From assembly GCF_009856865.1 (NCBI RefSeq), contig NZ_WVUD01000023.1:1-64000 (forward strand): a stretch of 64,000 bases of DNA, written 5' to 3'. The notes under the pieces are model-generated. The model saw only the letters and a program-made list of their open reading frames with translations. It was not told where the DNA came from and searched no databases. The stretch comes from Solidesulfovibrio aerotolerans. Lineage in GTDB: Bacteria; Desulfobacterota; Desulfovibrionia; Desulfovibrionales; Desulfovibrionaceae. Of this stretch, positions 4,964 through 16,500 are shown one piece after another (the stretch's first letter is position 1; each line of letters starts with the position of its first letter). Position numbers and translations under genes: made by a program.

Positions 4964-7000
4964 TCAGGTTGTTTGCTGGCTTGGAACGGCGGCGTCAAGC
5001 CCTGCACCCGGTATGGTCCTGGCGGCCGGAAAAGTCAGTCGAAACACACTTCCCTGCTCCGGGGCGCTGTCGACCTCAATCACTCCCCCGTAATCCCTGA
5101 CGATGCCGTAGGTTATGGCCAACCCAAGGCCCATGCCCTGGCCGGTTTCCTTGGTGGTGAAAAAGGGTTCGAAAATTTTTCGCCGCTCGCTTTCCGGGAT
5201 GCCGCAGCCGGTGTCGGAGACGGCGACAGTCACCCGCCCGTCGGCGCTTCGCGAGGTGATGGCCAGACGTCGCGGCCGTTCCCGGCCGGCCGGGCCGGCT
5301 TTGTCGATCATGGCGTCGCGGGCATTGACCACGAGGTTGAAAAAGACCTGTTCCAGGCGGTTGGCATGGGCCTTAATGAGCGCATCAGCGGTCAGATCGA
5401 GCGATATTTCGATGCCTTGCAAGGCTAATTCGTGGCCGATAATGGTGAACACGCCCCGGATGGGCTTGTTGATGTCCACGCTTTCCAGACGGGGCTCTGA
5501 TTTGCGGCCAAAATCGCGCAGATGGCCGATGATGGCCGCAGCCCGGTCCACTTGCTGGCTGACCTGTCCGGTGACCGTGGCCAGGGCTTCGGGCGTGGGC
5601 GTCTTGCCGGTTTCGGCCACCATCTTTAAATAGTCGCTGCCGATCTTTATGGCATTGAGCGGCTGGTTGAGTTCGTGGGCGATGCCGGCGGACATTTCGC
5701 CCAGGGTCTTCATCTTGCTGGCCTGGATGAGCTGGGCGTCTTTTTCCACCAGTTCGGTGATGTCGGTGGCCGAAACAATGACGGCGTCGCGGCCCCGGTA
5801 GGCGATGCGGCAGGCGTGGACGTTGACATAGAGCGGACTGCCGTCTTTGCGCACGTGGCGCAGCTTGGGAAACAGCACCCGGCCCGGGGCGTCGCGGTCG
5901 TGTAAATAGTCGGCCACCCCGCCGCCATCGGCTTCCGGTTCCAGATCGCCCACCTGCCGCCCGGACAGCTCCTTGCGCCTGTAGCCGTAAACGGCCTCAG
6001 CCTGGGAGTTGGCGTCGAGGATGCGGCCGCTCACCGCGTCCACCACAAAGACCGGATCAGGGTTGCTGTCAAACAGCGACCGGTATTTTTCCTCGGACTC
6101 CCGCAACCGGCGACGGTAGAGCCGAATACTCCAGACCATGTTGCTAAAGGATTCGGCGAGTTGGGCCACTTCGTCGCCGCCGCCGTCTTTGCGGTAAAAC
6201 CGGCACTCCCGGCAGGTCCGGGAATTGACCGGACTGACGGTGTCGGCGTCCGAGCGGTTCTGGTCGAAATGCCAGCAGGGCAGATCGGTGTCGGCATAGG
6301 CCTGGCAATGTTTGATGGCGTCGTCAGACAGGCCGAGCATGGCTTCGGGCGCATCCATGCTGCCCCGGCTGATTGCGTCGGCAGCTTGCGTTAAGCGCGA
6401 CAGCGGCCGGGCCACGGCATTGGACAGACGCAGCACGATCAGAAACATGACCACGGTGACGGCCGTTATAAAGCCCAGAAAGGTAGTGCGCAGCTTGCCG
6501 ACCAGGGAGTCGATGTGGCTTTTGGACAACCCGACGTGCACCGCCCCCAGGGTATAGATACCTTCGCGCACGGGCACGGCGATGTCGATGGCTTGGGTGC
6601 TCTCGAAATCGACTAAATCGATGCTGTACTCGGCGTTTTCGCGCAACGGGTTGATCGTGCGCAGATCTTCGGGAAACGGCCGGATAAAGGTGTTGGCCAG
6701 GGTGCGGCCCTCGTTGTCCTGAATAAAGATGTAGGACACGAGCACCTTGCGTTCGCCCAACTGGGCGGCGTCGAAAATGAGGCTGACCAGATTGGCCCGG
6801 TCCTTGTCGAGAATATAGCCGCTGGCCCGTTCGGCAATGCTCTGGCCGATGGCCACACCCCGCTGTTCGAGTTCGCGATTGAGGCTGGTTACCAGAATCC
6901 AGCGGGCCAAAATGGCAATGACCGCGCTGACCAGCAGCACCACCGCCATGGTGCCGCCAAACATTTTGAGTTTTAAACTGAAGCGTTGGGGGAACGGCAT
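4964..7000 (-). CDS. membrane PAS sensor histidine kinase with Cys cluster next to HAMP
   Basis: A 678-residue sensor kinase. TM1 lies at about residues 14-36 and TM2 at 173-191, with a periplasmic sensor region between. A HAMP segment (about 195-290) is interrupted by four cysteines: Cys232, Cys242, and Cys263/Cys266 (TCRECRF). A PAS domain (about 305-415) is followed by HisKA with His442 ([13 protein letters not shown]) and a HATPase with N-box (NLVVNARDA), G1 (DTGCGIP) and G2 (GMGLGLAI). It starts 4 bases after the binding lipoprotein gene and precedes the REC-STAS gene, so the three are surely one operon. The cysteines may bind metal, heme or an Fe-S cluster, or sense redox; this is inference. 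Confidence 0.93.
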
Positions 7001-7004
7001 GGGA

Positions 7005-8324
7005 TCACCGGCCAGCTTGCGGGGTCACAGCGTCACTGGCACCGTCAAGCTCCGTCGGTGGCGGCACTGCTTTCGCCGCAGCGTCCAAGACGTCCTTGAT
7101 GCGGCCCCAGTCCGTGACCATCTGAAACCGGCCGTGGTCGAACCGGGTGAAATAGACGCGCTCCAGACCCTGATGGCGGTCCGGGCCGTAGGTGACCGGG
7201 CTGGCGATGCCGACCGAAAAGGTGTCGATGGATTCGATGGCATCGAGAAAACGTTCCCGGGTCAGGTCGCGTCCGGCCCGGCGCAGCCCCTCCACCAGCA
7301 CCCGGGCGTTTAAAAACCCCTCCAGACCGACCACGTTGGGCCGCTCCTGGGGGAACGAGCGGGCCAGCAACCGGGCATAGTCCTGAACACCAGTTAAAAG
7401 GGCGGCCGATTCGGGCAGATCCGGCGACGGGACCACCTGGGACATGATAAGCGGCGTGTCGTCGCCAGGGCCGAGGATACGGGCGATTTCGTCGGCTCCG
7501 ACAAAGGAAACGGCGTAAAAAAGGCCTTTATACCCCCGCGCCCGGGCCAGTTTAATGGCCTTGGCGCACGGCCCGTAGGTGCCGATCATAACGATAGCCT
7601 GGGGATTGGCTTCCATAAGCCGCCCCAACCCCTCCTCCACGTCCATGGTGCCCCGGATGTAGGAACCGCGCGCCACGGGTGCCAGGCCCAGGGATTTTAG
7701 CGCCATCTCCGTGCCCTTGAGCCCGTCGAAGCCGTAGGCGTCGTACTGATAGAGCACGGCAATCCGGTCAAAGTGCAAGTCGCCCACCATATGGTCCACG
7801 GCGGCGGCGGTCTCCTGATAGTAGGAGGCCCGGATGTTGACGATATAGCGTCGAAACGGAAACCGCAGGACATCAGCTCCGGTGAAGCTGCCGACCAGCG
7901 GCACGCGGGCCTCTTCCAACAGCGGGATGATCTTGGCCGTGGTCGGAGTGCCGACGTAGCTGAACAGACAGAAAACCCGGTCCTCGACAATGAGTTGCTG
8001 GGTGTTGGCCACGCAGCGCGGCGGATCGTAGCCGTCGTCGAGGGTGATGAGCTTTAAGGTGCGTCCGGCCACGCCGCCGGCTTCGTTGACGGCGTTTAAA
8101 TAGGCCTGGGCACCGTAGAGGGTCTGTTTGCCGAGATAGCTGGCATGCCCGGTCAGCGGCAGGGAGCAGCCGATAACCACGGCGTCCTGGGTGACACCCG
8201 GGGTGTCGGCGGTGCCGGACTCAGGTGCGCTCCCATTGGAACAGGCGGCCAGGAACAGGACAACGCTGGCAACCCAAGGTGCCAGGGCGCGAAACAAGGG
8301 GGAAAAAGCGGTGGATGTGCCCAT
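7005..8324 (-). CDS. periplasmic ligand-binding lipoprotein (Leu/Ile/Val-binding family)
   Basis: A 439-residue type I periplasmic binding protein. The lipobox LFLAAC with Cys28 predicts a lipoprotein. The fold is typical of branched-chain amino-acid ABC binding proteins: VVIGCSLPLTGHASYLGKQ, YLNAVNEAGGVAGRTLKLI, and LTRERFLDAIES near the C-terminus. No permease or ATPase gene is nearby; the next gene, 4 bases on, is a histidine kinase. The likely role is therefore as the sensor's ligand-binding partner rather than an import component. The ligand cannot be told from sequence. No clear Shine-Dalgarno sequence precedes the ATG. Confidence 0.9.
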   Translation of the reverse strand: MGTSTAFSPLFRALAPWVASVVLFLAACSNGSAPESGTADTPGVTQDAVVIGCSLPLTGHASYLGKQTLYGAQAYLNAVNEAGGVAGRTLKLITLDDGYDPPRCVANTQQLIVEDRVFCLFSYVGTPTTAKIIPLLEEARVPLVGSFTGADVLRFPFRRYIVNIRASYYQETAAAVDHMVGDLHFDRIAVLYQYDAYGFDGLKGTEMALKSLGLAPVARGSYIRGTMDVEEGLGRLMEANPQAIVMIGTYGPCAKAIKLARARGYKGLFYAVSFVGADEIARILGPGDDTPLIMSQVVPSPDLPESAALLTGVQDYARLLARSFPQERPNVVGLEGFLNARVLVEGLRRAGRDLTRERFLDAIESIDTFSVGIASPVTYGPDRHQGLERVYFTRFDHGRFQMVTDWGRIKDVLDAAAKAVPPPTELDGASDAVTPQAGR

Positions 8325-8465: not shown

Positions 8466-9188
8466 CTAACTAAAGGCCCGAAGCGGTCGCATGACCTTGG
8501 CCAAAAAGGCCTTGCGGCTTAAGGGGCGCGGGCCGGCATCGCCGAACTGGAGATGCTTGTAGTAGGCGCTCGGCGGTTGGGTGCACAGGAAGATAACCCG
8601 CACCGAGTCGGCATCCACCAGTTCCGCCTTGGGGAACTTGACTTTGAGCTTGGCCAGACGGTCGCGGGCCAGGGCCAGCATCTCGTCGCGGTCGCCAAAG
8701 TTCATGGTTCCGGTGGGACAGGTCTGCACGCACGAGGGCACCATGCCGGCATGGATGCGGTCGTTGCACAGATCGCATTTGTACATGAGCTTGGTGGCTT
8801 TATCGACGCGGGGGATGTCGTAGGGACAGGCCTCGCGAATGCCCTGGGCGTTTAAGCCCTTGCATTTTTCGGTAAATACCACTGCCCCGGTTTGCGGGTC
8901 CTGCATGATGGCGTCCGGGACTTCGGCGTCGCCGACCATCTTGCACGGCGCGTCTAAGCAGTGCCGGCACTGATCCGGGAGAAACAGCCAATGGAACTTG
9001 CCATCGATGGTTTTCTCGGAAAAACGCACCACTTTCAGCGTCTGCCAGGACAGGTCCGGCGGATTCTGGTGCGAACCGGTATTTTCCGTGGGTTCCACGG
9101 GTTTGTTCTTCCACTGCTTGCAGGCGATCTGGCAACCCCGACAGCCGGTGCAGCGCGACAGGTCAACAAAGAAGGTTTTTCCAGTCAT
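8466..9188 (-). CDS. fdhB: formate dehydrogenase iron-sulfur (beta) subunit
   Basis: A 240-residue electron-transfer subunit with four [4Fe-4S] clusters. The ligand groups are CTGCRGCQIAC, CRHCLDAPC, CKGLNAQGIREACPYD and KCDLCNDRI with CVQTCPTG. It passes electrons from the FdhA active site to periplasmic cytochromes. The ATG at 9188 is chosen because GGGAGG stands about 9 bases upstream and the protein begins MTGKTFFVDLSRC; the longer upstream frame lies inside fdhA. No signal peptide or C-terminal anchor is visible, so it is probably exported together with the Tat-targeted FdhA as a soluble heterodimer. Confidence 0.95.
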   Translation of the reverse strand: MTGKTFFVDLSRCTGCRGCQIACKQWKNKPVEPTENTGSHQNPPDLSWQTLKVVRFSEKTIDGKFHWLFLPDQCRHCLDAPCKMVGDAEVPDAIMQDPQTGAVVFTEKCKGLNAQGIREACPYDIPRVDKATKLMYKCDLCNDRIHAGMVPSCVQTCPTGTMNFGDRDEMLALARDRLAKLKVKFPKAELVDADSVRVIFLCTQPPSAYYKHLQFGDAGPRPLSRKAFLAKVMRPLRAFS

Positions 9189-9202
9189 GACAGCGGTCCT
9201 CC

Positions 9203-12200
9203 CTAGGCCTTGCGCACGTTGACCATAAAGGCCTTGGTCTCGGGGATGCCCGTATTGGGGTCGCCCACCGAAGGACACAGGATATTGGCCGAATCGCCGC
9301 CATTGACCGGCCAGGTCCAGCCAAAGTGCCAGGGGATGCCCACCTGGTGGATGGTCTGGCCCAGCACGGTAAAGGGCTGGATGCGCTCGGTGACAATGGC
9401 CTTGGCCCACAGCGAACCACGGGTGCTTTCGAGGATGACCTTCTCGCCGTTTTTAATGCCGCGCATGGTGGCCAGTTCCGGGCTCATCTCGCAAAACATC
9501 TGCGGTTCGGCTTCAAGGAGCCAGGGAGAGTTGCGCGTCATGACGCCGGTCTGCCAGTGCTCGGTCACCCGATAGGTGGAGCAGACAAACGGGTACCGGG
9601 GATCGCAGGAGGCATGGATATCCGCCGGGCCGGTGAACTTGAGCGCCGTGGGATTGTGCAATTGCTTGGAGAACGGGTTCTCGGCAATGGGACATTCCAG
9701 CGGCTCGTAGTGCTCGGGCAAGGGACCATCGTTGCGGCCCGGGCCAAAGATCTGGCCCATGCCGTCGGTGGTCATGATAAACGGGAACTTGCCCTTTTCG
9801 ACATCGGCCATGGGCGGCCAGGGACCGTCAGGCACATCGCCTTCCCATTTGCCGTTGACCCAGGCAATGACCGGTTTGTCCGGCTGGTAGGGCTTGCCCT
9901 GGGGATCGACCGAGGCGCGGTTGTAGATGATGCGGCGGTTGACCGGCCAGGCCCAGGACCAGGCCGGGAACAGCCCGATCTTGGCCTGCATGGCGGTTTG
10001 GGACTTGTCGCGACGGGCCGCCATGTTCTTGTCGGTGTAGGAACCGCAATAGACCCAGGTGCCGGAGCAGGTGGAGCCGTCGTTTTGCAGCAGGGCAAAG
10101 CCCGGTACCGGATCGCCGGGTTTAAAGGTCTTGTCCGCATCGCCGACCTTGAGCGTCTTTTCCGTGAGGAAATAGCCGTTGATGCGCTTGGCGACCTTGT
10201 GGGGATCGAAGGCGTGGTTGGTGGCTACATCCCAATTGAGGTTTTTGATGGGATCGGGATAGGCCCCGCCTTCTTTGGCGTAGAGCTCGCGGATCTTTTC
10301 AAACAACTCATAGATGATGTCGCCATCGGGCTTGGAGTCGCCGGACGGCGGCTGGGCCACATTGCGCCACTGCATCCAACGGCCGGAGTTGGAGATGGAG
10401 CCTTCCTTTTCAAAGGACACGGCGCACGGCAGATAAAAGACCTCGGTCTTGACCTTTTTGGGGTCCATGCCCGGACCTTTCCAGAACGAGCCGGTTTCGG
10501 TCTCGAACATGTTGACCGTGACCATCCAGTCAAGCTTGGTCATGGCCTCGCGGGTCTTATTGGAGTTGGCGGTGCTGGCGGCCGGGTTCTGGCCCCAGGC
10601 AAAAAAGCCCTTGAACGCGCCGCCGAGCATGGCATCAAACAGCGACAGCCAGGAGTAGTCCTTGCCGGGCTCAAGCTTGGGCAGATAGGAATAGCCGGTT
10701 TCGAGATCCTGGTTGGGATACATGGATTTCAGGAAACTGGCCAAGTACTTCGGCCGGTTGCCCCACCAGTTGGCGCTTTGCGGCTCCTTGGTGACCGGCG
10801 TATTTTTCTCGTTAAATTCCACCAGCGTCTGCATGGCCGCCGTGGGGGTCGGGATGTAGCCGGGCAGGATGTGGTAGAGCAGGCCCTGGTCGGTGGAGCC
10901 CTGGACGTTGGCTTCGCCGCGCAGAGCGTTGATGCCGCCGCCGGCCACACCCATGTTGCCGAGAAGCAACTGGATGATGGTCATGGCCCGGATGTTTTGC
11001 ACGCCCACGGTGTGCTGGGTCTGGCCCATGGCGTAAAGCATGGTGCCGGACTTTTCCGGTTTGCCCGTGGCGGCGTAGGTCTGGTAGACACGCTGCAGAT
11101 CGGCCACCGGCGTGCCGGTAATGGCCGAAACCGACTTCATGTCATAGCGGTCGTAGTGCGTCTTCATGATCTGATAAACGCAACGGGGATTATTGAGCGT
11201 CGGGTCTTTCTTGATGCGGCCCTGATCATCCTTGGCAAAACTCCAGGCAGACTTGTCGTAGGCGCGCTTTTCAGCGTCAAACCCGCTAAAAAGGCCGTCC
11301 TTGAAGTCGTACTTGTCGCTGAGGATAAACGAGGCATTGGTGTAATTGACGACGTAATCTTTAAAGATAAGGTTGTTGGCCAGGATGTAGCGGATCAGTC
11401 CCCCGAAAAACGGGATGTCCGAACCGGAACGCAACCGGGCAAACACGTCGGCATGCTGGGAAGTGCGGGTGTAGCGCGGATCCACGTGGATCATGGTCGC
11501 GCCCTTGTCCTTGGCCCGAAGCACCCACTTAAACGAGATGGGATGGTTCTCGGCGGCGTTGCTGCCGATAATGAAAATGCAATCTGAGTTGACGATGTCG
11601 ATCCAGTGGTTCGTCATCGCCCCGCGTCCGAACGACTCTGCCAGAGCCGCTACAGTTGCGCTGTGTCAGATACGGGCCTGATGCTCGATGTAGTTTAGCC
11701 CCATGGCTCGAAGCATGGCCTGATAGATCCAGCATTCCTCGTTGTCCATGGCGGCGGAACCGACCGAGGCGATGCCCTCGCAGCGGTTGACCACCCGGCC
11801 CTTGGCGTCCTTGGTCACGAAGCTGCCGTCACGGGATTCCTTGACCTTGCGGGCAATGCGGTCGAGCGCCCAGTCCCAGGATTTTTCTTCCCAGTTCTCG
11901 CTGTACGGGGCGCGGTAGAGCACCTTTAAGATGCGACGATCATTTTTGCCGAGCTGATAGTGGGACGCGCCCTTGGGGCACAGGGCACCCTCGTTGATCG
12001 GATGGTCAGGATCGCCCTCGATATTGACCACTTTGCCCTTGCCGTCCTTGTCCGTGCTGGCGATCAGCCCGCAGCCCACCGAACAGTAGCAGCACACCGA
12101 CGTGGTCTGCTTGGTGAACTTGAGCTTGGCCGCCTGACCTTCAGCCCGGGCCGGCGTCAAATCGAAACCGAGTCCGCCAAAAGCGGTCACGGCCGTCGTC

Positions 12201-12241
12201 GCGCCAGCGATTTTCAGGAACTCTCTGCGGTTCCATTCCAT
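9203..12241 (-). CDS. fdhA: formate dehydrogenase alpha subunit, selenocysteine-containing, Tat-exported
   Basis: A catalytic Mo/W-bis-pterin subunit oxidising formate to CO2 in the periplasm, 1012 residues including selenocysteine. It begins with a Tat signal (NRREFLK at residues 4-10). The proximal [4Fe-4S] ligands are Cys50, Cys53, Cys57 and Cys88. The frame is split by TGA at 11666-11668. The flanks read HQARI-TGA-HSATVAALAESFGRGAM, exactly the context of the active-site Sec in FDH, so this is Sec192 and not a frameshift. The region after it continues TNHWIDIVNSDCIFIIGSNAAE. The start at 12241 gives the Tat motif; an upstream in-frame ATG at 12274 would bury it. FdhB follows 14 bases on. 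Confidence 0.96.
11666..11668 (-). other. in-frame UGA recoded as selenocysteine (FdhA Sec192)
   Basis: The codon lies between HQARI and HSATVAAL, the conserved active-site context of formate dehydrogenases. A bacterial SECIS should occupy about 11625-11665 on the transcript. In that stretch I can fold GGCUCU with AGAGUC around a 3-nt loop, but I do not see a textbook bulged-U SECIS by eye. SelA, SelB, SelC and SelD genes are not in this window and must be elsewhere. Confidence 0.93.
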
Positions 12242-12316: not shown

Positions 12317-12342
12317 AACTTATGCTAAAATTAGCATAAGTT
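12317..12342. promoter_or_regulatory. 12-bp perfect palindrome upstream of fdhA (candidate operator)
   Basis: AACTTATGCTAA (12317-12328) and TTAGCATAAGTT (12331-12342) are exact reverse complements separated by AA. It sits 76-101 bases upstream of the fdhA start in an AT-rich island within GC-rich DNA. It does not match the FNR consensus TTGAT-N4-ATCAA. It is a strong candidate binding site for a dimeric regulator, perhaps controlling fdhA in response to formate, molybdenum or tungsten; the regulator is unknown. Confidence 0.7.
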
Positions 12343-12379
12343 AAAAATAACATATAGTTCCGTGCAAAGACTCACTTAT

Positions 12380-12419: not shown

Positions 12420-13280
12420 TTAGTTAAGATCTGGCACTAGCGAGGAGATATTGGCGAGTAAAATTGCGAGGATATCATCGTCACGATGATTGTAGCGGAA
12501 CTCCAGCTCTTTGAGATAGAGCGGAAATTTATGCGCCGTGACCCCGTGGAACCGCACCAGCCGTTCCCGGGCGTAGGGCCAAAAGCCGGTCTGGCGGGGA
12601 TCGACCGCCGGGGCGCGGCCGGAAATTTCAACCAGATGCCGGGTCAGCAGGTCCGAGCCGCAGGCGACCAGGGCGTCGTAGCGCAAATAGCGATCCGAAT
12701 AGACAATGGCCCCCAGGCGCGACAGGGGCAGGGAGAAGTTGCGGTTGAAATGGAGCAGATCCTGCGGCGTCAGGCTTGGCAGATAGTCGACAAACACCAG
12801 GTCGCCGCGCTCCAGGATGCCGAAAACGGGCACAGTGGCCAGGGGTTCGTCAGGAGCGTTCGGACGCAGGGCCCGGGCGGCCGAGCCGAGCTGCGCCCCG
12901 AGCGGGCTTTTGAGAATGGCCACGCCGTCGAGGCTGGCGGCCAGGATGGACAGGCGCACCACGGTGGCGGCCTTGTAGGCGGTGTTATAGGCCAGGCCCA
13001 GGGCAGCGGCCATGGCATGGGCGGTTGCATCGACGGCGAAAAGGGCCAGCAGGCGCAGCCACTGGCGCGGGGTGAGGCCGGCCAGGCCGGCAAAGCGGCC
13101 GGACAGGGCGTGGAAGGTGTAGCGGCAGCCGGCGCAGCGCACCCGGCCTTCGGCCAGGGCGTACGCCCTGCCCCCGCCGCACCGGGGGCACACGGGCTGA
13201 CCGCTCGGCCAGCACTGCCGTTCCAGGAACTTGCGCGCACGCTCTTCCGTGCGGACGTGGCGCGTCAGATCAAGGACCAT
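12420..13280 (-). CDS. ISXO2/IS1595-type transposase-like Zn-ribbon protein, probably domesticated
   Basis: A 286-residue protein beginning MVLDLTRHVRTEERARKFLE. A zinc ribbon has Cys31/Cys34 (CPRCGGG) and Cys49/Cys52 (CAGC). The remainder follows the IS1595/ISXO2 transposase layout: FGILERGDLVFVDYLPS, IVYSDRYLRYDAL with Asp196, and the C-terminal signature FPLYLKELEFRYNHR. The conserved HTN-x-x-E before the FW pair reads DPRQTGFW, so the last catalytic acid is missing. It starts 13 bases after moaA, runs in the operon direction and shows no flanking terminal repeats. It therefore looks like a co-opted, probably DNA-binding, operon member rather than a mobile element. There is no clear Shine-Dalgarno sequence. 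Confidence 0.75.
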   Translation of the reverse strand: MVLDLTRHVRTEERARKFLERQCWPSGQPVCPRCGGGRAYALAEGRVRCAGCRYTFHALSGRFAGLAGLTPRQWLRLLALFAVDATAHAMAAALGLAYNTAYKAATVVRLSILAASLDGVAILKSPLGAQLGSAARALRPNAPDEPLATVPVFGILERGDLVFVDYLPSLTPQDLLHFNRNFSLPLSRLGAIVYSDRYLRYDALVACGSDLLTRHLVEISGRAPAVDPRQTGFWPYARERLVRFHGVTAHKFPLYLKELEFRYNHRDDDILAILLANISSLVPDLN

Positions 13281-13293
13281 GGGAGCGGCACGG

Positions 13294-14298
13294 CTAGCCG
13301 CCAATAGCCGACATGTCCCGGGATTTGGACGTGCCCCCGGGATTGAGCACTTCATAGCCCAGCGGTTTGGTGCGCAGGGCCATGGTGATGATCTGGCGGA
13401 CTTTTTCCAGCCCCAGCCCGGGATTGCGCAGGATCGGGCGCAGCCGGTATTCGCGGTCGGAAAAAAGGCAGGTGCGCAACTTGCCGTCAGCGGTGATGCG
13501 CAGGCGGTTGCAGGAGTCGCAGAAGTGTTCACTCAAAGGCGAAATGACGCCGAAGCGGCCGGCCCCGCCCTCGATGCGATGCATGCGGGCCGGACCGCCG
13601 GCGGCCCGGTCGTGGTCGTCGGGCACAAGGGTGGCGAACCGCGAGGCCAGGGCGAGGACATCGCGGGCCGAAATGTAGTTTTCCGGCCGCCAGAGGTTGC
13701 CGTCACCCATGGGCATAAATTCGATGAAACGGACATCGATGGGTGCTGCCTGGGCCAGGGCCACGAAGTCCCCGATCTCTTCGGAATTGATGCCGCGCAG
13801 GGCCACGGCGTTGAGCTTCACCCGCAGCCCGGCTTTTAGACATTCGTCCAAGGCCCGGCGCACATTGTCCAGGCGGTCGAGACCGGTGATGCTGGTAAAT
13901 TTCTCCCGGTCCAGGCTGTCTAAGGAAATATTGACGGCGGTGACGCCCAGGGCGGCCAGGGCGGCCGGCTTTCCCTCCAGCAGGGTGGCGTTGGTGGTGA
14001 TGCGCAGATCCACCTGGGGAAAACGGGTGCGGATGGATGCAACGAACGTCATAAAGTCGCGCCGGGCAAAGGGCTCGCCACCGGTGAGGCGGACCTTGGA
14101 GATGCCCATATCGCAGGCCAGACCGACCAGATCGAGCAGTTCCTCGTAGCGCAGGATGCGCTCGTGGGGGATAAACGTGATGCTGTCCCTGGGACGGCAG
14201 TACAGGCAGGAGAGGTTGCAGCGGTCGGTGACGGAAAGGCGCAGGTAGCTCACCTCGCGACCCCGTCCGTCGCGCAATACGGCGGCATTGCCGGTCAT
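13294..14298 (-). CDS. moaA: GTP 3',8-cyclase (molybdenum cofactor biosynthesis)
   Basis: A radical-SAM enzyme making the first pterin intermediate of molybdopterin from GTP. The SAM cluster ligands are Cys27, Cys31 and Cys34 (CNLSCLYC). A C-terminal cluster motif, CDSCNRLRITADGKLRTC, binds the second [4Fe-4S]. The protein ends in the conserved Gly-Gly tail (MSAIGG), which MoaA needs for activity. At 334 residues it is full length. Its ATG overlaps the mobA stop codon (ATGA), so translation is probably coupled. In this operon it supplies cofactor to FdhA. Confidence 0.97.
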   Translation of the reverse strand: MTGNAAVLRDGRGREVSYLRLSVTDRCNLSCLYCRPRDSITFIPHERILRYEELLDLVGLACDMGISKVRLTGGEPFARRDFMTFVASIRTRFPQVDLRITTNATLLEGKPAALAALGVTAVNISLDSLDREKFTSITGLDRLDNVRRALDECLKAGLRVKLNAVALRGINSEEIGDFVALAQAAPIDVRFIEFMPMGDGNLWRPENYISARDVLALASRFATLVPDDHDRAAGGPARMHRIEGGAGRFGVISPLSEHFCDSCNRLRITADGKLRTCLFSDREYRLRPILRNPGLGLEKVRQIITMALRTKPLGYEVLNPGGTSKSRDMSAIGG

Positions 14299-14906
14299 AT
14301 CCCCTCCTCCATGCCTCGGGCCCGGATGAGGTCCGGCGGCGAATTGACGTTAAAAAAGGCGCGCGCGACGGCCGGGTCCGCCCGGCTGTAGTCCACATGG
14401 CAGCGCATTTCCTCGGGGAAAATGGCCGAGAGCCGGCGCTGCCCCTGGGCCAGATTGCGCTGGAGCACAGGGATTCCTTCGGGGTCATAGATGGCCACCA
14501 GGGATTCGACGTAACCCGACTCGATAATGCGGTAGGTGGTCATCAAGGCCTCTGGCGGGCGCGTCTGCCAGGCCGTGATCAAACGCTTCAAAACAGCCTC
14601 TTCCAAAAACGGCAGATCACACGAGACGATCAGGCACGGCCGGCCGGTGGCGGCAAGGACTGTCAACACCCCGCCGGCCGGTCCGTTCCCGGGTGTTGCG
14701 TCAGGCAACCAGGGCAGGCAGAGGTCAAAAGGCAACGGATCGCGCCCGGACACCAGCACCTCGCCGGTGACGGCGGCCAGGGTGTCGGCCACCCGGCAAA
14801 AGAGCGGCTGGCCGAAAAAAGTCAGCCAGGCCTTGTCCCGGCCCATGCGACTGCTTTTGCCGCCGGCCAGGATGACGCCCAGGGGCGTTGCCCCGGCCGG
14901 GGTCAC
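14295..14906 (-). CDS. mobA: molybdenum cofactor guanylyltransferase
   Basis: A 203-residue nucleotidyltransferase that adds GMP to Mo-molybdopterin, giving the MGD dinucleotide used by FdhA. The N-terminal loop LGVILAGGKSSRMGRDKA is diagnostic. NGPAGGVLTVL and LIVSCDLPFLEE are the usual further motifs. The start is read as GTG at 14906, overlapping the fdhD stop (GTGA). The 3' end overlaps moaA as ATGA. The C-terminus contains FFNVNSPPDL, typical for MobA. Confidence 0.93.
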   Translation of the reverse strand: MTPAGATPLGVILAGGKSSRMGRDKAWLTFFGQPLFCRVADTLAAVTGEVLVSGRDPLPFDLCLPWLPDATPGNGPAGGVLTVLAATGRPCLIVSCDLPFLEEAVLKRLITAWQTRPPEALMTTYRIIESGYVESLVAIYDPEGIPVLQRNLAQGQRRLSAIFPEEMRCHVDYSRADPAVARAFFNVNSPPDLIRARGMEEGI

Positions 14907-15616
14907 AAGCCGACCCTGCCGCTGGGATCGGTGAAAATGGTAAAGCGTTCCTCGGCGTCGCGGGCAAACCCCACCAGGGTGGCCCCGGCGTCCTGGGCGG
15001 CGGCCAGGGCCGCGCCGGTCACGGCCGAGCGGCTCACCACCATGCGGATGCCGGCCCGCAGTGCCTTGTGCATCATGCTGGCTGTCACCCGACAGGACAG
15101 GAAAAGGACCAGTTCCGGCAGGCAGAGGTCCAACCGCACGCCAAAGCCGGCCAGCCGGTCCAGACAGTTGTGGCGGCCGATGTCCTCGGCCCGCACGACA
15201 AATTCGCCGGTGGTGGTGTCGTACAGGGCCGCCCGGTGAAAGCAGCCCGTGCCGTCCCACAGCCCGGGTTCGGCAATAAAGCGGCGCACCAGCCCGAGCA
15301 GTGCCGCCGCCGGCAGGCTGCCCGGCAAGGCCGGCCGGGGGCCAGGACGCGGGTCCGGCCGGGCTTCCAGGACAAAAGCCAGCCCCTCGGCCGCGGTCAC
15401 GACCGGGATCGTCCCCGGGGCCAGCAGGTCCAGGGCGGCATGGCCCAGGGCCAACACCTCCGGGTCGATGGGCGCGGCATAGAGCGTGCGGCGGCCATGG
15501 CCGGCAACCTCAAGGGTCACCCGGATTTCCGTGGCCACATCGTCGGTGATGTCGGCCATACGGCCGTCGCGGTAGCGGCGGCAGGCGACGGACCGGGTCA
15601 GGGGCGCGAGTTCCAT
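14903..15616 (-). CDS. fdhD: FdhD-family formate dehydrogenase sulfurtransferase, lacking the CxxC motif
   Basis: A 237-residue accessory protein that in Escherichia coli moves sulfur from IscS to the FDH Mo cofactor. The family core is present: GLWDGTGCFHRAALYD and VVRAEDIGRHNCLDRLAG, then LSCRVTASMMHKALRAGI and VVSRSAVTGAAL. The usual CGxCG sulfur-carrying loop before the TG-x-H segment is absent; that place holds a Pro/Arg-rich stretch (RPDPRPGPRPALPG). Other cysteines occur at TGC, HNC, DLC and LSC. The gene starts inside the fdhE stop (TGATG) and overlaps mobA. The chemistry may differ from the E. coli protein. Confidence 0.88.
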   Translation of the reverse strand: MELAPLTRSVACRRYRDGRMADITDDVATEIRVTLEVAGHGRRTLYAAPIDPEVLALGHAALDLLAPGTIPVVTAAEGLAFVLEARPDPRPGPRPALPGSLPAAALLGLVRRFIAEPGLWDGTGCFHRAALYDTTTGEFVVRAEDIGRHNCLDRLAGFGVRLDLCLPELVLFLSCRVTASMMHKALRAGIRMVVSRSAVTGAALAAAQDAGATLVGFARDAEERFTIFTDPSGRVGL

Positions 15617-16500
15617 CAGAACCCCCAGGCAGACAGCACCGGGCGGTTAAACCCCTGGCCCCGGGCGGCCATGTCCAGGGTCAGCGATTCCAGATCGTCC
15701 AGGACGGGAACGCTCACCCGGTCAAACTCCCGGAAATCGGTGGTCTTGATGTAGCACTTGCATGTGAGGCAAACGTGCACGAAATAGCCCGGCTCCTCGG
15801 CAGCGGAAAACACTTCGAGCTTTTTAACGTCTTCCTCGCCGCAATACGGACACATGAGCCGCTTGGCCCGGTATTCCAACTGGCAAAATGAGCAGGTCAG
15901 GTGTCTGGCCCCTTCCTTGCCGACCAGCCGGGCCATGAGCGGCGGGCTGGCGCACACCGGACACTGGCCAAACACCCAGCTGCGATCTGCCGGGAAATGG
16001 GCGTAGACGGCCTCGCCCACGGCGGCCAGATGCGGGGCCAGGGCGGCCTGGACGAGAAAATTGAGCAATCGCGGCGCACTCGGCGTACGCTCGCCAAAGG
16101 TCGCGAAAAAAGCGTCGTCGCCAGCCAGATACTGCCGCACGGCCTTGTTCAGATCGAGGCTGCCGTCAAGGCGGGCCGCAGCAATGACGTCCATGGCCTC
16201 GACCAAATGGGCTTCGTTGGCCCGGACAAAGCCGGAAATTTCATCGAAAAGCGCTGTCAGGCGGGTCATCTCCACCGGAAAGGCGTCGCGGGCCAGCATG
16301 GGCGCGCCGCGCAGTGTGCGTTCGACTTCTTCGAGCATCCCGGGTTGGATTTCCACTTTTTCCGCTGCCCGGGCCACAAGCTGGGCTCTGGCCGTAGCAG
16401 CCACCAAGGCCAGCATGGAAGCCGGCAAAACGGTTTTTTGCGACAGGACGTCGAGTTTTTTCTCCAATTGCTTGGCGGCACAGGCGGCATCAAAGGGCAT
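15616..16500 (-). CDS. fdhE: formate dehydrogenase accessory protein
   Basis: A 294-residue cytoplasmic maturation factor, family FdhE. The C-terminal half carries four Cys pairs expected to bind iron or zinc: CPVC, CSFC, CPYC and CLTC (about residues 180-255). AAGGAGA stands 7 bases before the ATG. First gene of the fdh locus; its stop overlaps the fdhD start. A good sigma70-type promoter lies upstream at 16554-16582. Confidence 0.94.
   Translation of the reverse strand: MPFDAACAAKQLEKKLDVLSQKTVLPASMLALVAATARAQLVARAAEKVEIQPGMLEEVERTLRGAPMLARDAFPVEMTRLTALFDEISGFVRANEAHLVEAMDVIAAARLDGSLDLNKAVRQYLAGDDAFFATFGERTPSAPRLLNFLVQAALAPHLAAVGEAVYAHFPADRSWVFGQCPVCASPPLMARLVGKEGARHLTCSFCQLEYRAKRLMCPYCGEEDVKKLEVFSAAEEPGYFVHVCLTCKCYIKTTDFREFDRVSVPVLDDLESLTLDMAARGQGFNRPVLSAWGF

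Follow-up and report, generated by a model that had tools for sequence, protein, structure and literature searches.

An IS1595-type transposase gene exapted beside formate dehydrogenase genes in Desulfovibrionales: a candidate local regulator

Between the maturation genes and the structural genes of a formate dehydrogenase (fdh) operon, the window (the 64,000-nucleotide stretch of Solidesulfovibrio aerotolerans contig NZ_WVUD01000023.1 that was analysed) carries a gene that appears to have been exapted from an IS1595-type transposase. Exaptation is well supported by the loss of catalytic residues, the failure to find terminal repeats, the single copy, purifying selection, and a link to fdh genes that extends across the order Desulfovibrionales. 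With a probability of roughly one half, the encoded protein, catalytically inactive, regulates the neighbouring operon by binding DNA. The original prediction was of an exapted DNA-binding protein, possibly acting at a palindrome in front of fdhA; its first half is upheld by the lost catalysis, the selection and the fdh link, the DNA-binding regulator is something that we still infer, and the palindrome is more likely the site of another protein.

The gene, its neighbours and its product

The features of the operon on which the argument draws are as follows.

8466..9206, minus strand: fdhB, an ORF named from its sequence
9203..12241, minus strand: fdhA, whose frame includes a TGA, taken from the sequence to encode selenocysteine; it begins at 12241 with what likewise reads as a twin-arginine signal
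12420..13280, minus strand: domesticated IS1595-type transposase gene, 286 aa, ATG at 13280 and stop at 12420
13294..14298, minus strand: moaA, an ORF directly in front of the transposase-like gene, 13 bases upstream, named from the original prediction and the sequence
14295..16500, minus strand: the ORFs that head the same operon, which we take from their sequences to be mobA-like, fdhD and fdhE

The extent and strand of the transposase-like ORF, and its start 13 bases behind the end of moaA at 13294, agree with what had first been described. The order of moaA and the transposase-like gene is repeated in genus relatives, and that of the mobA-like, fdhD and fdhE ORFs is conserved in the genus loci that reach so far. 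A fusion of MoaA with the transposase-like protein, to which long open frames had pointed, was rejected, a MoaA match in the same frame being absent from the 12 long frames checked. Two ORFs, one periplasmic binding-protein-like and one for a sensor kinase, follow fdhB (window 4964-8324); many other genera have relatives of this pair, in varying orientations, in the vicinity of the transposase-like gene.

The protein is laid out as a Zn ribbon (residues 11-55), an HTH-like region (about 70-112, by inspection) and a remnant of the DDE fold (148-264). The Zn ribbon and DDE-type fold of IS1595/ISXO2 that had been claimed for it both score above their Pfam cut-offs, Zn_ribbon_IS1595 with 43.5 bits against 25.4 (E 3.2e-11) and DDE_Tnp_IS1595 with 36.3 bits against 27 (E 6.8e-9). 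The latter match spans profile positions 36-153 only, and because coverage begins at position 36 the first catalytic strand and its Asp, within the first 35 positions, are unmatched. The score against the NCBIfam IS1595 equivalog, 33.8, lies below the cut-off of 75, and hhalign of 25 family members against five mobile-type IS1595 copies gives a probability of 99.7. All 25 aligned members share W74, K103 and R109 in the HTH-like region, and no effector domain appears among Pfam matches at E up to 10. A sequence search of the PDB returned weak Zn-ribbon matches only, plus antibody chains that were taken as chance; the Zn ribbon also scores weakly against RNA-polymerase and ribosomal Zn ribbons (best E 4e-5). 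AlphaFold modelling of the window protein and five relatives gave a mean pLDDT of 45.4.

Loss of the catalytic triad

By hhalign and in a 103-row alignment, the catalytic positions of the window protein are occupied by A129, D196 and T231, leaving one acid of three. The original prediction had the last acid replaced by Gly; loss of the Glu is confirmed, but the residue is Thr231, Gly232 being the next one. The first catalytic Asp is lost as well (Ala129), the middle Asp alone is kept, and an intact DDE triad is accordingly missing from the window protein. Position 231 taken by itself is a weak argument, since across the 14 genus members it varies between E (5), A (5), T (2) and D (2); position 129 in the same members is A, R, N or S, never Asp.

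This pattern extends to the family at large. Among fdh-linked rows of the alignment the first Asp is absent from all 68, including five with a gap there, the second is kept in 47, and the third position is E or D in 18; it is an acid in 7 of the 14 genus members as well. Rows linked to hcp or nrf genes (n = 9) have the first Asp in none, the second in four and an acid at the third in none. The four cysteines of the Zn ribbon are kept in 68 of 68 and nine of nine rows, respectively, so that, as far as sequence can tell and with the HTH-like region judged by inspection, the DNA-binding parts have been kept while catalysis was lost. Rows labelled IS1595 (n = 11) have the first Asp in nine, the second in eight and Glu at the third position in five; two of them (L094, L095) seem to be degenerate, and alignment at the third position is poor for the L096/L099 type.

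Four relatives outside Desulfovibrionales (L154-L157), which fall close to the family, have intact or nearly intact DDE motifs. The whole triad is present in the alignment for L155; by eye, L154 and L156 carry the motifs DESYFGG and DKSYFGG with an E before GFW, and L157 is truncated, with K before GFW. The L156 match contains an internal TAG. These copies are likely close to the mobile ancestor, and their flanks, searched with the window fdh genes and a few other queries, gave no matches.

Mobility, selection and distribution

The gene is present in a single copy in its own genome, the other match being a distant IS1595 ORF. The claim that no terminal repeats flank it is sustained, by a blunt test, in that inverted repeats within 300 bases of the gene do not exceed chance (best score 9 against a shuffle maximum of 11); the sensitivity of the test is limited, since it picked out only two of the 11 IS1595 rows (scores of 39 and 20). 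The dN/dS analysis that had been suggested points to purifying selection, with values of 0.06-0.25 in 11 of the 12 gene pairs computed; the L046/L048 pair (0.75) was not counted, its two members differing by one codon in length and so falling out of frame. One genus copy (L049, genome G008) has its frame split by a one-base deletion in a T run, which is either a sequencing error or a true loss, and this copy was omitted from the tree and from the alignment residue counts.

All 14 genus genomes searched carry the gene, G008 with that frameshift, and it is widespread in Desulfovibrionales. A search of 59 genomes, its own and those of relatives, gave matches at E 1e-5 or better in 42, and family members were counted in 41 of these, the remaining one (G030) having an IS1595-type copy only. 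A close FdhA (E 1e-60) is encoded by 50 of the 59 genomes, and 41 of these have the gene, as against none of the nine without FdhA, although the genomes are not independent of one another; the nine FdhA-positive relatives without it indicate that it is dispensable for having formate dehydrogenase. A search of the class gave matches at 1e-10 in 108 of 149 genomes, mobile copies included, and a sample of the phylum gave matches at 1e-35 in seven of 247, three of which, its own included, belong to the home family.

Loci were compared at 59 matching places outside the genome of origin and at 40 more from the class and phylum searches. In a tree of 103 rows, built by a quick method and weakly supported at the root, a single origin of the family is likely. 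The expectation that the gene would recur beside fdh in other genomes is borne out by the 77 rows of the fdh clade, in which the gene is followed directly by fdhA in 49 and preceded directly by fdhE or moaA in 39, with either neighbour in 64 and both in 24. Eight further rows have fdh-like matches elsewhere in the stretch examined (weak in L179), and in five (L063, L068, L079, L080, L181) no fdh gene was seen within that stretch; L063, L079 and L080, from one family, lie behind topA, away from fdh. Across the order, then, the neighbours are conserved rather than scattered and unrelated.

A small ORF of about 55-80 aa, with the motif F.GLGFDL.P...GY.LLV.L.REIRG, lies between the transposase-like gene and fdhA at loci such as L052, L058, L066 and L172. 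It is found at 22 of the 49 loci with fdhA directly behind and was not seen in the window genus; its dN/dS is 0.26-0.41 in four pairs, and three examples matched no Pfam family. The GLGFDL string recurs in the Tat signal region of FdhA (FGGLGFDLTPARA in the window FdhA).

In eight of the 10 rows that form a sister clade (support 99), hcp and/or nrf-like genes lie alongside. These are hcp with nrfHA in L081, L085 and L087, nrfHA in L188, NrfH with an NrfA-like ORF in L083, and, in L088, L189 and L190, a 28-31% NrfH match as the sole support. The ninth hcp/nrf-linked row, the hcp-linked L082, sits on a long branch, and its place in the tree is uncertain. The names Hcp, NrfHA, TopA and those of Fdh maturation are readings of sequences, not database calls. 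Judged by their sequences, the hcp/nrf-linked paralogues are a second exapted clade.

The palindrome and its site class

Two short elements lie in the DNA between the transposase-like gene and fdhA.

12317..12342, no strand: 26-bp palindrome AACTTATGCTAA-AA-TTAGCATAAGTT, 75 bases from the fdhA start codon, of the TATGYY-N6-RRCATA class
12343..12354, no strand: conserved block TATGTTATTTTT (as read on the minus strand), abutting the palindrome

The palindrome is real, as first reported, with perfect 12-nt arms and a 2-nt spacer. No match with three or fewer mismatches arose in 100 shuffles of the window, and in its own genome the palindrome is unique apart from one site with three mismatches (C114), before an ORF read as a chemotaxis/sensor gene, that was taken as chance. 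It lies just behind the transposase-like gene in all 14 genus members and, outside the genus, in L051, L158 and L170, the addition of which widened the class to TATGYY-N6-RRCATA. The abutting block is identical in the 14 genus members and is a possible further half-site. In 17 related sequences 85% of the palindrome cells are paired, against 28-37% when slid, and changes on both sides affect 12 cells, where shuffles give 3.8 (none of 500 as high), with a covariation score (0.207 against 0.114) that was not reached in 500 shuffles. This excess of pairing and of both-side changes makes the symmetry look selected. Two further measures are within chance: five pairs have a double change (3.1 in shuffles, 45 of 500 of which reach this), and pair types number 8 (7.6 in shuffles, 260 of 500).

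The 59 genomes contain 189 sites of the class and 71 of its reversed control; the corresponding figures for the genus are 49 and 8. The first site sample consisted of 20 places from 39 sites in seven genomes, all with the transposase-like gene, and five of these sites precede tungsten or molybdenum genes (aor twice, TupA-like, MoeA-like and FmdE); a TonB receptor (L254) and an aldehyde dehydrogenase (L242, L247) were left uncounted. In further genomes with the gene, six of 20 sites among the matches listed are at such genes (aor, three ModE-like and two TupA-like), and a MocA-like gene of uncertain start (L322) is a possible seventh. In genomes without it the corresponding figure, again among the matches listed, is one of 20 (a TupA-like gene, L294 in G052), the two groups being unmatched for kinship and those without the gene being mostly of one family or small. 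Three FdhA-positive genomes without the gene (G018, G030 and G032, with 3, 7 and 5 sites) lie outside the site sample.

Many of these sites do not adjoin the transposase-like gene, including those before aor (L255, L260, L315), TupA-like (L259, L326, L331), ModE-like (L318, L321, L324), FmdE (L258) and MoeA-like (L257) genes; in L075 and L076, sites before MoeA-like genes have a paralogue 4.2-4.4 kb away. The ModE-like names correspond to 44.6-53.9 bits, below the NCBIfam cut-off of 98.5, and the TupA-like names to 134-240 bits, below that of 400. At L318, L321 and L324 (genomes G051, G047 and G038) the site is within 30 bases of the predicted start of a stand-alone ModE-type HTH gene, a placement directly before such genes that suggests ModE-type autoregulation and suggests a stand-alone ModE-type HTH protein as a candidate binder of the window palindrome. 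A stand-alone ModE-type HTH gene is found at L258 too. The class members TATGTCTTATCTGACATA and TATGTCATTTCCGACATA, at L242 and L247, lie near what seems to be the same aldehyde dehydrogenase gene in genomes G000 and G007 (called by Pfam on the G000 copy alone), perhaps a non-tungsten counterpart of aor.

At fdhA itself, genomes without the transposase-like gene have a site at one of 11 loci (L278 in G037, 179 bases before the start). Four more fdhA loci away from the gene, chosen for a listed nearby site, have it at 121-457 bases. Outside the genus, a site lies within reach in seven of the 36 rows in which fdhA follows directly, or eight with the looser pattern TATG-N10-CATA, and no DNA element specific to loci of the transposase-like gene was found there.

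Candidate functions

That the transposase-like protein regulates at the palindrome at 12317, as had been proposed, is improbable. The site does lie just behind the gene in the whole genus and in three rows beyond it, its both-side changes and covariation exceed those of all 500 shuffles, its excess over the reversed control is larger in the 41 genomes with the gene (144 to 45) than in the 18 without (45 to 26), and sites at tungsten or molybdenum genes, among the matches listed, are six or seven of 20 in the former and one of 20 in the latter. The claim nevertheless finds no support in the wider distribution of the class, which precedes aor, TupA-like, ModE-like, FmdE and MoeA-like genes that do not adjoin the transposase-like gene, is present at a TupA-like gene (G052) and at fdhA (G037) in two genomes where that gene was not found, and is missing from most fdhA-adjacent rows outside the genus. 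The palindrome is probably the operator of a genome-wide tungsten/molybdenum regulator, a stand-alone ModE-type protein or TaoR, to which the transposase-like gene is a mere neighbour. In D. vulgaris, TaoR is said to govern both aor and tupABC; PF12727 and PF12728 scans of the genome of origin for a TaoR candidate were not decisive. In line with a genome-wide regulator are the sites before ModE-type genes in three genomes and before tungsten genes, and a 2023 paper names DVU3193 as a regulator of tungstate uptake (PMC10102598). Against it, the ModE and TupA names derive from matches below NCBIfam cut-offs, only one of 11 fdhA loci has the site where the transposase-like gene is lacking, and fewer sites at such genes in those genomes are also to be expected if the protein is linked to the sites.

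As to what the protein does, a still active or decaying insertion sequence that came by chance to lie inside the operon would explain the transposase labels of Pfam and the frameshift in one genus copy, but it is exceedingly improbable, and was rejected, in view of the neighbourhood fixed across the order, the purifying selection, the missing triad, the repeats not found and the single copy. An exapted protein that is no transcription factor is the main alternative, though a somewhat unlikely one: it would aid the making of exported redox enzymes, by cofactor or selenocysteine steps, mRNA binding or chaperone contact, and would owe its place between maturation and structural genes to that role. 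Such a function is consistent with its place next after fdhE or moaA in 39 of 77 rows, with the sister clade's position beside hcp and nrf-like genes, which likewise encode complex redox enzymes, and with the weak Zn-ribbon scores against RNA-polymerase and ribosomal Zn ribbons (E 4e-5 at best). It fits poorly with the three members behind topA and with the nature of the retained parts, since a Zn ribbon and an HTH-like region are what IS1595-type transposases use for holding DNA. Moreover, Hcp and NrfHA have neither molybdopterin nor selenocysteine in common with FdhA, and the occurrence of two clades at such unrelated enzymes favours a regulator over a cofactor-specific maturation factor.

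The preferred reading, a local regulator, runs as follows. The protein descends from an IS1595-type transposase that was captured in the Desulfovibrionales lineage, probably once; its sequence shows that the cutting chemistry was lost, the Zn ribbon and the HTH-like DNA-holding region being kept. Purifying selection has maintained the gene beside the structural and maturation genes of fdh. We infer that the protein binds DNA, with the adjacent operon as its target, at or near which it would alter transcription and so tune formate dehydrogenase expression; the palindrome before fdhA would more likely serve as operator of the separate tungsten/molybdenum regulator. Members of the sister clade would tune hcp/nrf operons likewise. 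The broader picture, of an order-wide family of dead DDE transposases with a single origin that split into local regulators of an fdh clade and an hcp/nrf clade, is put forward tentatively, at somewhat short of even odds.

Relation to known systems and significance

With the IS1595 transposases of the ISXO2/ISPna2-like type the window protein shares the Zn ribbon, the HTH-like region, a KExExRxN block and the remnant of the DDE fold; it differs in having lost two of three acids, in the repeats not found, in its single copy and in its fdh-bound place. TunR, reportedly a Xer-recombinase-derived, tungstate-responsive regulator of sulfate reducers, is likewise a host protein made out of an enzyme of mobile DNA, and it shares with the window protein both the bacteria and the setting of metal enzymes. 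TunR, however, is said to be of tyrosine-recombinase origin and to carry a ModE-like effector domain, and a Xer-type domain with a ModE/MOP effector, by which TunR is reportedly defined, is absent from the window protein at Pfam E up to 10. TaoR, which is excisionase-like, resembles it in a mobile-element-like DNA-binding domain and a connection with tungsten enzymes, but is itself a candidate binder of the palindrome class and is not known to be related to the window protein. TldR proteins differ from the window protein in being RNA-guided and in having another fold. They are presented as TnpB-derived RNA-guided transcription factors (PMC13418256), and the likeness is that of a catalytically dead transposon protein serving as a regulator.

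In the open-licence literature, where absence weighs little, no paper was found on an IS1595/ISXO2-like gene with Desulfovibrio formate dehydrogenase, nor any recognised case of a bacterial regulator derived from a DDE transposase. Because databases label its domains as transposase, a conserved gene of anaerobic respiration operons is likely to go unnoticed. The palindrome class, which occurs at fdh genes as well as at aor, tupA-like and ModE-like ones, offers a putative tungsten/molybdenum regulon that is directly testable. If the transposase-like protein is a regulator, it would partly answer how sulfate reducers set formate dehydrogenase levels, and a DDE-transposase case would join the recombinase- and TnpB-derived regulators. 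If the family of dead DDE local regulators is real, a DDE transposase would have given rise to a family of transcription factors in bacteria.
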